From: Halapricum desulfuricans
GTDB taxonomy: Archaea; Halobacteriota; Halobacteria; Halobacteriales; Haloarculaceae
Reading direction: 5' to 3'
Length of the DNA stretch: 64,000 nt
Assembly (NCBI RefSeq): GCF_017094505.1
Contig: NZ_CP064787.1
Coordinates: forward strand, 1,116,001 to 1,180,000
In this document: one piece after another, positions 37,332-63,488 of the stretch
Position numbering within the stretch: position 1 is the first letter of the stretch
How the letters are laid out: each line of letters starts with the position of its first letter
Program-made: the position numbers and the translations under genes
The notes under the pieces: generated by a model
What the model was told of the DNA's origin: nothing
The model's database searches: none
The model's input: the letters and a program-made list of their open reading frames with translations, nothing else

Positions 37332-38728
37332 GGTTCCTCCAGTGCCACGAGCGTCTCCCCGTCCCAGAGATAGAGCCGGCCGTCACTGACGAGAATCGAG
37401 TGGACTGTCCGCCATACCGGCTCCGTGCTGCCCGACTCCGAGCGCTTTGATTTGATCCGCCAGCGTTCGGCCCCATCGTCGAGTGCGTACGCGAAGACTG
37501 ACGACGGATCGCTGAAGAACCCGTGTTGTGTCCCGAGGTATACGGTTGTGTCGCCGATAGCGATCGATCGGACATAGCGCGTTTCCGGCACGGTCGTCTG
37601 CCAGCGCTGCTGGCCGCTGTCCCGGTCGAATCCGACCAGGAAAATGGGGAGTTCGTTTTCGCTGTTCCATCTCTGGCTGTCCGTTTGTCCGACTGTGGTC
37701 ACGAGAGACTCCGGACCGGCGGCGAGATGGACGTGTGCCCGGTTTCCCACTTCGATCGTATTCTGCCACTGTTGGTCGAGTGTCTCGGTATCGTACGTTT
37801 CGATGCGCAACTGCTTGCCGGTCGAAACCAGTGTGACGGCCCCGTCTCGCAGAATTGCTCTGGCCACATTCGGCACGTTGGCTCGTGCAAGCTCGCGACC
37901 GTCGTGGTCGAACAGGTATAGTTTCGAAGCGTTGAGCGTCGTGTCTACGACAACGAGTCTGTCGGTATCCGCTAGCAATATCGGCGGGCCAGCAGCAACG
38001 AGTCTGTCAGTATCCGCTGGCGATATCACCTTGCCAGCAGTATCGAGGTCGCTCATCCATCGCTGGCGGCCGTCGTCGACGTCGATTGCGCGAATCCGCA
38101 TCGGATTCCGGGGCTCGGCATAAAACCACGTTCCACCCGCGGTCGCTGTTGTCTGACCCGGTTTCGCCTCGCCCCATCCGCGTGGTGGCAAGCGCTGTTT
38201 GATCCAGCGCCGGGGAGCCACTCCACCGGAGGGGTTGAGTCCGCTCGTTCGGTATCGGCGGTGGTTCCGTCGGGTGCCGATTCCGCTGTGTGTATATCCG
38301 CTAGCGAGAACGACACCGTCGGCGTATGTCCGTGTGCCGGCAACGCCGTAAACCGCGCTGAGATCCGAAATCTGAAACTGTATGTCGCCGTTCGCGCTGT
38401 CGACTGCGTACAGTGTCTCGCTGTCTCCAGTGTGTGTGGCCGGTGCGGGGTACGATCTCTCGACCGAGTTCGGGCCCACAAACAGCGTCCCGTCGACGAG
38501 AAACAGCGACGCGTAAAATCCATCGTCGAACGGTTGTCGCCACGCGATTTCAGCGTCTTCGACCGGGCCCGATGTTGGCGAGTAGTTTGTCTGACCGGCG
38601 TCGGCTTGTGGTACTGGCCAGTCGGCCGGGTCGAAGTTCGTCCGACTGCCGAGAGACAGACACCCTGCAGCTGAGCCCAGTACTATCCCGGACCCCCCGA
38701 GAAAGGCACGACGCGACAGCTGTTGCAT
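37328..38728 (-). CDS. PQQ-like beta-propeller lipoprotein (module copy B)
   Basis: The product has 466 residues. MQQLSRRAFLGGSGIVLGSA followed by AGC is a Tat signal with a lipobox. Propeller blades show the usual L(Y/F)-x-(V/L)D and W strands: ETLYAVDSANGDIQFQIS, IRAIDVDDGRQRWMSDLD, FLVGFDRDSGQQRWQTTVP, VFAYALDDGAERWRIKS, and the closing LYLWDGETLVALEEP. It probably forms six to eight blades; no quinone-binding residues can be assigned. A 45-bp tandem duplication lies at 37951-38040. It is 31% or so similar by eye to the copy at 39854 and is coupled to the membrane gene downstream. Confidence 0.85.
   Translation of the reverse strand: MQQLSRRAFLGGSGIVLGSAAGCLSLGSRTNFDPADWPVPQADAGQTNYSPTSGPVEDAEIAWRQPFDDGFYASLFLVDGTLFVGPNSVERSYPAPATHTGDSETLYAVDSANGDIQFQISDLSAVYGVAGTRTYADGVVLASGYTHSGIGTRRNHRRYRTSGLNPSGGVAPRRWIKQRLPPRGWGEAKPGQTTATAGGTWFYAEPRNPMRIRAIDVDDGRQRWMSDLDTAGKVISPADTDRLVAAGPPILLADTDRLVVVDTTLNASKLYLFDHDGRELARANVPNVARAILRDGAVTLVSTGKQLRIETYDTETLDQQWQNTIEVGNRAHVHLAAGPESLVTTVGQTDSQRWNSENELPIFLVGFDRDSGQQRWQTTVPETRYVRSIAIGDTTVYLGTQHGFFSDPSSVFAYALDDGAERWRIKSKRSESGSTEPVWRTVHSILVSDGRLYLWDGETLVALEEP
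37951..38040. repeat. 45-bp tandem duplication inside the propeller gene
   Basis: Two adjacent 45-bp units (37951-37995 and 37996-38040) both begin CAACGAGTCTGTC and end GCCAGCAG; I count seven differences. In protein this repeats DTDRLV(A/V)... over 15 residues (ADTDRLVAAGPPILL then ADTDRLVVVD). The frame is kept, so the duplication lengthens a blade loop. Confidence 0.85.
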
Positions 38729-50532: not shown

Positions 50533-50936
50533 GGCAGCGGGAGCCCGGACCCCGTGCCCCGGACCAGCGTTCCGGCCTCGCCGGAACGCGCGCAAGGGGC
50601 ATGAGGAAAGTCCCCCCACCGTCCGGGCAGGTGACCGGGTGCAAACCCGGAGCGGGAGACCGCTGGCTCTGGAACAGAAACGAGACCGCTCTGCTCGACT
50701 GATGAGGCGTGCGAACCCCGACTGACGAAGGTCGGGTCGACTGCCGGACGAAAGCCCGGTAGAGTGACCCGCCGAGAAAGGAACGGGGAGCTGACCCGCC
50801 GAAGGCCGACAGCAGAGGACGGATGGAACGGCGAATCCTCACCGGTGCAAGTCCGCGCCACAAGGTAGCCCGGACGCGGCGCGGACGCTCAGCCGAATGC
50901 CGGGCCGAACAGAAGGGGGCTTACTCCCCGCAGCCG
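50533..50936 (+). ncRNA. rnpB: RNase P RNA (catalytic RNA of ribonuclease P)
   Basis: This is the RNA subunit of the enzyme that cuts the 5' leader from pre-tRNAs. The conserved core is visible: ATGAGGAAAGTCCCCCCACC (CR-I region, 50601-50620), GGTGCAAGTCC-type sequence in the middle, and ACAGAAGGGGGCTTACT (CR-V region, 50909-50925). The closing P1 helix pairs GGCAGCGGGAG (50533-50543) with CTCCCCGCAGCC (50924-50935), allowing one mismatch and a bulge. Its length of about 404 nt fits archaeal type A RNA. The protein subunits are not in this window. Exact ends are approximate. Confidence 0.93.
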
Positions 50937-60831: not shown

Positions 60832-60924
60832 GACTCGTTCGAATCCCACTGCTGCATTTGGGGCTCACGGCTCGCTCCGCTCGCCGTTCGCTTCCTCGAG
60901 GCCTCCCTTCGGTCGGCCTCGTTA

Positions 60925-61270
60925 TGCGAGGGAGGGGATTCGAACCACGCGAAGACAGTCGCTCACTTCGTTCGCGCTGCGTCTTCTCTACTCCGAATCC
61001 ACCAGACGATTCGGTGCGGCGCGACGTTGCGCCGCACACTCATGCGAGGGAGGGGATTCGAACCGAAACCAGACGTGCTCGCTTCGCTGCGCGCGACTGG
61101 TAGGCTTCGAATCCACCAGACGATTCGGTGCGGCGCGATGTTGCGCCGCACACTCATGCGAGGGAGGGGATTCGAACCGAAACCAGACGTGCTCGCTTCG
61201 CTGCGCGCGACTGGTAGGCTTCGAATCCACCAGACAATTCGGTGCGGCGCGATGTTGCGCCGCACACTCA
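60925..61270. repeat. Tandem array of tRNA-Leu 3'-end-containing repeats (three units)
   Basis: Units start at 60925 (118 bp, diverged first half), 61043 (114 bp) and 61157 (114 bp). Units 2 and 3 differ at one visible position. Each unit opens with 22 bp identical to the 3' end of the tRNA-Leu gene at 61271 (acceptor and T-arm strand), and ends with a hairpin GTGCGGCGC...GCGCCGCAC (in unit 2 at 61128-61151) and ACTCA. Repeated peptide-like frames across the array are by-products of the 114-bp period (38 codons). Confidence 0.9.
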
Positions 61271-61355
61271 TGCGAGGGAGGGGATTCGAACCCCTGGACC
61301 CCTGCGGGAGCGGGTCTTAAGCCCGCCGCCTTTGGCCAGGCTCAGCCACCCTCGC
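61271..61355 (-). tRNA. tRNA-Leu (anticodon TAA)
   Basis: This 85-nt class II tRNA reads UUA codons. On the minus strand the 5' acceptor strand is GCGAGGG and the 3' strand CCCTCGC with discriminator A at 61271; CCA is not encoded. The D-arm has GGCTGAGCCTGGCC, the anticodon loop is CTTAAGA, a long variable arm follows (CTCCCGCAGGGGTC region), and the T-arm is GGGGTTCGAATCCCC. It lies directly ahead of the tandem repeats of its own 3' end. Confidence 0.95.
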
Positions 61356-61568: not shown

Positions 61569-63488
61569 ATGTCCGACCAGCTCAATGATGGAAAATCAGG
61601 AAGTACTCGGCGGAAGATGCTCTCGCTCATCGGGGGCGGAGCGGCGGCCAGCCTCGCCGGGTGTTCCGCGTTCCTCGGTGACGACGACGGCAACGGCAAC
61701 GGCAATGGCAACGGAAACGGCAACGGCAATGGCAACGGCAACGGTAACGGCAACGGTGACGGAACCCCGACCGACGACGGCTACGACGGGCCGTCGCTAG
61801 ATCCCACTGTCCACGCCGACAAGGCCCAGGAAGCCTGGGAGACGATCCAGTCCAACCCCGATCCGGACGCACAGGACGTCCGCAACGAGGCCTACGTCGA
61901 GATCGAGGAGGCCGTCCGGGACAGTGCGGTCATGATGAACTTCATGCACACTGTCGGGGAACGATTCTGGTACGATTACGTGGACGTGCCGAAGTACGGG
62001 GCGCTCGGGCCGTCCTTCCAGCAGCACAACAATACTGAGCTCACTAACGACGACACGGAACTGAACCTCATCAACAGCACGCACGCCCACATCGACCCGA
62101 TCGAGTCCGACGACGAGGCGTCCTCGACGGTCATCACGCAGCTGTACGAGCCGATCGTGAACTATCCCAATGGCGTGCCTGAGCTCAACAACAAGCTCAT
62201 CGAAGGGTTCGAGCTGTCGGACGACCAGCTGACCTACACGTTCAACCTCAAGCAGGGCGTGCAGTTCCACGACGGGACCGAGATGACGGCCCAGGACGTC
62301 AAGTACTCCTGGCGGCGGGTCGTCGAGTCCCCGAACAGCGTCCGTGCGAACTTCATGCTGAACAGCCCGGACGGAGTCGGCGCGGTGCACGAGACCGACG
62401 ACGAGGGTAACGTCGTCCCGGACTCGCTCGCCGTGACGGTCGTCGACGACTACACGCTGGAACTGGAGGTCCGGAACCCCAACCCGGCCGTGATGGACGT
62501 CCTCACGTACACCGCGTTCTCGGTCATCCCCGAGGGACTCGTCGGCGACGTCGAGGGATACGAGGGGGACGTCTCTCACGGCGAGTTCCGTCGCGAGATG
62601 GCCCGCGGGACCGGCCCCTTCCAGTTCGACATGTTCTCGCTCGAAGACGAGTTCAGGGCGACCCGGTTCGACGACTACCACGACGATGTCGCTGACGTCG
62701 AGGCGGTCCACTACAACATCATCGAGGACACGGAAGCGATCTTCACGTACGTCATCGAGGAGAACGCGGACATCTTCGGGATCCCGACCCAGTATTACGA
62801 TCCGGACAAGGTCGACGCCGAAGAGGACGACCGCGGACGGCTCGTGGGCACGTACGGCCCGCTCGAAAATGACAAAACGGTCAATTATCTTCGCGTTTCG
62901 GAACTCGGGGTGTACTACTTCGCGTTCAACACCCGTAACGTTCCGATCGAGGTCCGGCAGGCGTTCATGTACGCTCTCAACCAGCAGGAGTTCATCGACC
63001 AGGTGTTCGCCGGCCGCGGCGTTCCGGCGTACAGCTTCACGCCGCCGGGAATCTGGCCGACGGGTCTCGACGGCTACGAGCAGTTCGTCGAGGAGTATCC
63101 CTACAGCGCCAACGAGACCGACCTCGAGAGCGCTCGGGAGGTCCTCGAGATGGGCGGCTACAGCGAGGACGAGCCGTTCGAGCTGACCTGCACGACCTAC
63201 CAGAGCCCTGCATACCAGGAGGCCGCTGGGATCCTTCGTGACAAGCTCGCGGGCAGCGGCATATCGATGGAGCTCGAAGAGGCACAGTTCGGGACGCTCA
63301 TCCAGCGCGGCTACGACGGCGACCTGGAGATGTACTCACTTGGCTGGTCCTGGAGCTGGGAGAGCGTCGCATACGGCCACTTCGGGTTCGAACCGAAGAA
63401 CACCGACACCTCCGGGATGCCGGGCGAAAACAACGGCTACTATCTCGACTGGCAGACCGAACTCTCGGAAAACTATTCAGAAGAGTAG
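61569..63488 (+). CDS. ABC-type peptide/nickel-family (SBP family 5) substrate-binding lipoprotein
   Basis: The product has 639 residues. A Tat signal with lipobox is seen: STRRKMLSLIGGGAAASLAG then C. Residues 40-65 are a (GN)n linker made by a synonymous hexamer series. The SBP family 5 fold follows: EGFELSDDQLTYTFNLKQGV, FHDGTEMTAQDVKYSWRRVV, VEGYEGDVSHGEFRREMARG with GTGPFQF-like sequence, and AFMYALNQQEFIDQVFAGRG. It delivers a peptide or similar solute to the permease encoded next. Residues 70-200 form an insertion or extra N-terminal part. Confidence 0.93.
   Translation: MSDQLNDGKSGSTRRKMLSLIGGGAAASLAGCSAFLGDDDGNGNGNGNGNGNGNGNGNGNGNGDGTPTDDGYDGPSLDPTVHADKAQEAWETIQSNPDPDAQDVRNEAYVEIEEAVRDSAVMMNFMHTVGERFWYDYVDVPKYGALGPSFQQHNNTELTNDDTELNLINSTHAHIDPIESDDEASSTVITQLYEPIVNYPNGVPELNNKLIEGFELSDDQLTYTFNLKQGVQFHDGTEMTAQDVKYSWRRVVESPNSVRANFMLNSPDGVGAVHETDDEGNVVPDSLAVTVVDDYTLELEVRNPNPAVMDVLTYTAFSVIPEGLVGDVEGYEGDVSHGEFRREMARGTGPFQFDMFSLEDEFRATRFDDYHDDVADVEAVHYNIIEDTEAIFTYVIEENADIFGIPTQYYDPDKVDAEEDDRGRLVGTYGPLENDKTVNYLRVSELGVYYFAFNTRNVPIEVRQAFMYALNQQEFIDQVFAGRGVPAYSFTPPGIWPTGLDGYEQFVEEYPYSANETDLESAREVLEMGGYSEDEPFELTCTTYQSPAYQEAAGILRDKLAGSGISMELEEAQFGTLIQRGYDGDLEMYSLGWSWSWESVAYGHFGFEPKNTDTSGMPGENNGYYLDWQTELSENYSEE

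Follow-up and report, generated by a model that had tools for sequence, protein, structure and literature searches.

The three tandem units that follow the tRNA-Leu(TAA) gene of the haloarchaeon Halapricum desulfuricans are probably haloarchaeal tRNA-linked repeats (TLRs), that is, non-coding cassettes made up of a trailer hairpin and a long hairpin, each closed by a copy of nucleotides 53–73 of the host tRNA. They were analysed in a window of 64,000 nucleotides (contig NZ_CP064787.1, positions 1,116,001 to 1,180,000) and belong to a feature that extends over the genome and over the class, beyond what the single window could show. In the genome of origin, strictly defined hairpins of this kind occur solely behind tRNA genes, the inverted T-arm that they contain is matched to the host tRNA, and between two species of the genus the number of units changes by whole units while the flanking sequences stay the same.

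Anatomy of the array behind tRNA-Leu(TAA)

All features of the locus lie on the minus strand and are given here in window coordinates. The tRNA-Leu(TAA) gene that anchors the array (61271–61355; ARAGORN and Rfam RF00005) is followed, from the first base past its 3' end, by unit 1 (61157–61270, 114 nt), unit 2 (61043–61156, 114 nt) and unit 3 (60925–61042, 118 nt), and Tandem Repeats Finder returned a single array for this region (60924–61292, period 114, 3.2 copies, 92% matches). That three units stand in tandem behind this tRNA was at the heart of the original prediction, and the coordinates, the exact tail copies and the repeat search all agree with it. The 22-bp identity of each unit to the tRNA 3' end, which had also been claimed, was confirmed in the form of exact 21-nt copies (21 of 21 nucleotides in all three units) located at 61157–61177, 61043–61063 and 60925–60945, respectively. 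When these tails are left aside, the cassettes at tRNA-Leu(TAA) are 93–97 nt long; the median over 86 cassettes is 99 nt.

Followed along the strand of the tRNA, each unit proceeds from a trailer hairpin through an inverted T-arm and an inner hairpin to GTTCGAATCC and the remainder of the tRNA tail. In unit 1, the trailer hairpin (GTGCGGCGC/GCGCCGCAC) was placed at 61242–61265 by strand folding as RNA and as DNA and the long hairpin at 61168–61228 by RNA folding, and the inverted T-arm GATTCGAAG at 61219–61227 has its partner in the GTTCGAATCC of the tail copy. The inverted T-arms of units 2 and 3 are found at 61105–61113 and 60991–60999. The first nucleotides of the tail copy are base-paired with the inverted arm, so that the tail copy closes the long hairpin and its beginning provides the 3' arm. 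Two points of the anatomy proposed earlier, in which every unit began with the tRNA-like stretch and ended in a hairpin, need correction: the order is trailer hairpin, long hairpin and tail copy, and the tail copy is itself involved in the long hairpin. Unit 1 folds much better than shuffled sequences, with z values of −4.1 (RNA) and −4.3 (DNA).

The two units closest to the tRNA, units 1 and 2, differ at one of 114 positions, which supports the earlier assumption of a recent expansion; the distal unit 3 is 82% identical, and its inner hairpin is unlike that of units 1 and 2. Next to unit 3, a decayed fourth unit is present at 60834–60924 (with GGGATTCGAACGAG at 60834–60847) that has kept its trailer and inverted T-arm and has lost its tail, and the same remnant occurs in the second species of the genus included in the comparison (G001). 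Elsewhere in the window, we noted an archaeal RNase P RNA gene on the plus strand (50533–50935; RF00373, 150.7 bits), a 45-bp direct repeat (37951–38047, 2.2 copies, 82% matches) and a low-complexity Asn-Gly codon repeat (61687–61764) close to the N-terminal end of a predicted lipoprotein (ORF 61569–63488).

Occurrence in the genome and across taxa

For each tRNA, its own 20-nt tail was sought within 600 nt with up to four mismatches, and the tails of other tRNAs, sought in the same regions, served as the control. In the 2.94-Mb genome from which the window derives (G000), 27 of the 44 tRNA genes have a downstream copy of their own tail, as against 1.5% for the tails of other tRNAs; the tRNA-derived similarity thus goes beyond chance. 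In one or two of the 27 (Met-CAT at L046, Asp-GTC), the match may be weak or due to an adjacent tRNA gene and not to a unit. Own-tail copies were also recovered at 15 of 42 tRNAs in G001 and at 20 of 37 in G077, a genome from another family, with controls of 1.5–2.1% across genomes. This in-depth tally covers the three genomes and the tRNAs detected in them by the search. The scan assigns one to four units to a tRNA, while many tRNAs have none, and 51 of 86 unit tails are identical over 20 nt. With the strict hairpin motif GATTYGA..GTTCRAATC, all 17 distinct matches in the H. desulfuricans genome were found behind tRNA genes. REP/RAYT palindromes were considered and rejected, as these are dispersed intergenically.

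A strict three-part pattern of T-arm, inverted T-arm and T-arm is present in 74 of 81 genomes of the Halobacteriales, whereas the 312 genomes examined from the rest of the phylum all lack it; a reversed pattern used as the control gave no matches. The carriers include Haloarcula, Halorubrum, Halorhabdus, Haloferax, Natrinema, Natrialba and Natronococcus; in Haloferax denitrificans and Haloferax prahovense, sister species of Haloferax volcanii, units stand at tRNA-Val. One of the seven Halobacteriales genomes that are negative for the strict pattern still carries four units according to the tail scan, and the same scan found no own-tail copy at any of the 27 tRNAs of the non-haloarchaeal outgroup G150. 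In the literature searched, we found no description of a TLR counterpart from haloarchaea or other archaea. Methanopyrus kandleri has a palindrome about 10 bp downstream of about half of its tRNA genes (PMC5217627), which is likewise an archaeal palindrome behind tRNA genes but has been described as a short motif without a tail copy or tandem units. Isolated bacterial loci combining a tail copy, an inverted T-arm and a hairpin were seen in Butyricicoccus (L340, L372), in MAG B30_G16 (L337/L389) and in a member of the Oligoflexia (L408); these are single loci, mostly behind tRNA-Pro or tRNA-Ser. Four bacterial genomes searched with gaps narrower than those of the haloarchaeal pattern yielded one match.

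Hairpin structure and comparison with the TLRs of Escherichia coli

Sixty distinct hairpins from many genomes have much the same nested layout, consisting of an 11-bp base helix, an asymmetric internal loop and an inner stem with an often GA-rich tip, and their lengths are too variable for one alignment. Each inverted T-arm follows the tRNA behind which it stands. The hairpins are mutually related, so that the p-values for covariation and strand overstate the evidence. With this reservation, the variable base in the inverted T-arm and base 57 of the tail copy match in 112 of 126 non-redundant hairpins (Fisher p 1e-19). Where the T-arm of the host tRNA is unusual, the inverted arm agrees with its own tRNA at 10.3 of 13 positions versus 8.5 for others (p 5e-6), and folding is better for the tRNA-sense strand than for its opposite beyond a composition control (p 5e-9). 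The motif GAGCG is likewise biased in its orientation (83 versus 4 of 126 hairpins), and a simple test on the five flanking base pairs gave a weak signal. The strand bias fits a fold of the tRNA-sense strand that is used in RNA or in single-stranded DNA. As for the matched arms, template-directed correction of quasi-palindromes could account for them as well as selection on the fold.

The TLRs of E. coli, first described in 1978, comprise 22 copies at ten loci with one to five copies per locus, repeat at their end 18–19 bp of the 3' terminus of the preceding tRNA or rRNA without a mismatch and are without known function (PMC8144298). The haloarchaeal units agree with the definition published there in that they stand directly behind a tRNA, share identity with its 3' end and, with one to four per tRNA, stay within the one to five copies per locus. 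Direct reading of the E. coli MG1655 TLRs at tyrT/tyrV (L515) and argQZYV (L518) revealed a trailer, an inverted T-stem, inner hairpins and a tail, and the inverted T-stems match their own tRNA and pair with the tail copy (GGGGAAGGAT/ATCCTTCCCC and GGGAGGAT/ATCCTCCC). In the passages of PMC8144298 consulted, we saw no statement on inverted T-stems matched to the own tRNA in E. coli TLRs.

The haloarchaeal units share with the E. coli TLRs, including RtT/rttR (Rfam RF00391), the location behind tRNA genes and the tail copy that closes the unit, and with those read in MG1655 also the inverted T-stem layout. On the other hand, they occur in another domain, follow about a third to 60% of the tRNAs in the three genomes as opposed to ten loci in E. 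coli, and are shorter (about 114 nt versus about 133–180 nt in the MG1655 TLRs read). In addition, the haloarchaeal tail copy starts at nucleotide 53, ahead of the T-loop, whereas that of the E. coli TLRs starts within or after the T-loop. The RtT covariance model (RF00391) gave no match with E ≤ 1 in L009 and four in L515 of MG1655. Membership in the RtT RNA family was therefore rejected and the units were not filed as RtT. They are TLRs by architecture, and what they have in common with those of E. coli is a layout without similarity to the RtT model.

Gain, loss and possible origin of the units

A comparison of copy numbers, which had been suggested for strains as a check of the original prediction and was made between species, showed that the number of units differs between G000 and G001 at 23 of 40 orthologous tRNAs (tail scan). 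The differences concern whole units at Leu-TAA (three versus one), Ser-TGA (four versus two), Leu-GAG (two versus one) and Asn (one versus none), the flanks aligning within two bases of their start; Val-GAC (none versus one) is similar by eye, with a flank below the alignment threshold. Such changes are best explained by recombination between tail copies, much as had been anticipated with unequal exchange between the tRNA-like copies, and unequal homologous exchange between tail and trailer copies would raise or lower the copy number. A missing unit could equally be a precise deletion. The cassettes of Ser-TGA unit 2 and Leu-TAA unit 3 are 84% alike although each carries the tail of its own tRNA, and mosaic arrays of dissimilar cassettes are present as well. 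That units may move from one tRNA to another is suggested chiefly by this likeness of cassettes at different tRNAs. Judged from the sequences, a new unit might arrive at a tRNA as a cassette with the recipient's own tail on both sides, so that the tRNA would stay intact.

It would be the tRNA-sense strand on which the fold is used, and the simplest form of this would be a pre-tRNA extended at its 3' end; the units may also be harmless passengers. It is possible, albeit unlikely, that they act as functional RNA under selection, the tRNA transcript reading into units that fold and are cut at the tail copies to give small RNAs or signals for 3' processing or termination. The stronger fold on the tRNA-sense strand and the oriented GAGCG motif point in this direction, as does the stretch of 590 nt past tRNA-Leu(TAA) that is free of any run of four T. 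Moreover, the TLRs of E. coli rRNA operons are transcribed, processed and bound by Hfq and CsrA (PMC8144298), and hairpin-type termination sites exist in Haloferax volcanii (PMC7237163). However, the variation in unit number at 23 of 40 orthologous tRNAs within one genus and the many tRNAs that lack units argue against such a role, and in Butyricicoccus the hairpin sits past an apparent intrinsic terminator. In about a quarter of the tRNAs that bear units, TTTT occurs no more than 30 nt past the 3' end and may halt transcription ahead of the unit. The idea that the inverted T-arm prevents competition of the tail copy for the acceptor strand of the tRNA is likewise unsupported, because in a partition function, a model that ignores co-transcriptional folding, the tail copy prevails whether the inverted arm is present or absent (0.92 versus 0.96).

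The original prediction had considered a tRNA-targeting integrase as a possible maker of the array. Scars left by elements with an integrase that repeatedly entered and left the tRNA 3' end are, in our view, quite an improbable source of the units, even though archaeal integrases prefer tRNA 3' ends (PMC8371274) and the tail copies resemble attachment sites of the SSV, pNOB8 and SNJ2 type, which likewise repeat the tRNA 3' end in direct orientation and leave the tRNA intact. Unlike such sites, the array has a conserved hairpin cassette and neither an element nor an integrase gene nearby, and the structural grammar that the units have in common is unexpected for scars. The H. desulfuricans genome contains seven integrase genes compared with 27 unit-bearing tRNAs, and the closest lies about 58 kb from the array. 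In G001, the array at tRNA-Leu(TAA) is present without an element. Integrase elements do use the Gly-TCC and Pro-CGG tRNAs of H. desulfuricans. At the latter, the element stands between the tRNA and that tRNA's own unit; it was inserted on the tRNA side, and the unit is therefore outside it. This element, located beyond the window (G000:C1, about 2008100–2027200, L230), is 19 kb long, encodes an integrase and has a 15-nt att repeat, ATCTGCGCCGGCCCA. At tRNA-Gly(TCC) (1982825–1982895), an integrase gene follows immediately downstream, and a half hairpin 66 kb beyond (G000:C1:1916604–1916643, L240), with a tail partially matching Gly-TCC, is possibly a displaced unit. The remnant may be a second case of an element splitting a tRNA from its unit. 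The full unit pattern was found in one IMG/VR viral contig only, and matches to a loose hairpin pattern in this collection look like chance; a viral origin was accordingly rejected. The units are probably no footprint of integrating viruses, because they follow such a large share of the tRNA genes in the three genomes and resemble the TLRs of E. coli.

We also attach little probability to a mobile cassette system in which a recombinase would act on the folded tRNA-sense strand and build integron-like arrays without ORFs, with the E. coli TLRs as remnants of this process or of one analogous to it. Integron attC arrays offer a resemblance in that small tandem cassettes are parted by structured hairpin sites of variable sequence; the haloarchaeal units differ by their length of about 100 nt, the lack of an evident gene and the lack of an integron integrase. 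That a recombinase recognizes the folded single strand, as for attC, and moves cassettes of 90–120 nt between tRNA tails is very unlikely. The conserved base helix, the asymmetric internal loop, the variable inner stem, the strand bias and the mosaic arrays would suit such a process, but no candidate enzyme emerged. The integron integrase TIGR02249 exceeded the cut-off in none of 79 Halobacteriales genomes, and integrons were rejected for this reason; casposon- or CRISPR-type insertion by Cas1 was rejected because Cas1 is absent from many unit-bearing genomes (G059, G060, G067, G075, G076, G087, G090). Furthermore, a double-stranded circle of 114 bp is mechanically unfavourable. Least credible is a mutational by-product, with template switching at the quasi-palindromic T-arm producing the inverted arms and the duplicated tails, and neither selection nor mobility involved: the inverted T-arm does track the tRNA, the T-arm GGTTCGAATCC is itself near-palindromic and sporadic bacterial cases exist, but the shared trailer-plus-hairpin cassettes at different tRNAs and the restriction to Halobacteriales within the phylum sample are left unexplained.

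Read as haloarchaeal TLRs, the units are a warning that a repeated tRNA 3' end alone is no evidence of an integrated element. With the TLR layout and its host-matched inverted arm occurring across the Halobacteria, what had been an oddity known from a single species becomes a trait that recurs at tRNA loci of two domains, and with dozens of units per genome and gain and loss between close species, the haloarchaea offer material for testing both the origin of the repeats and a possible role of their RNA.
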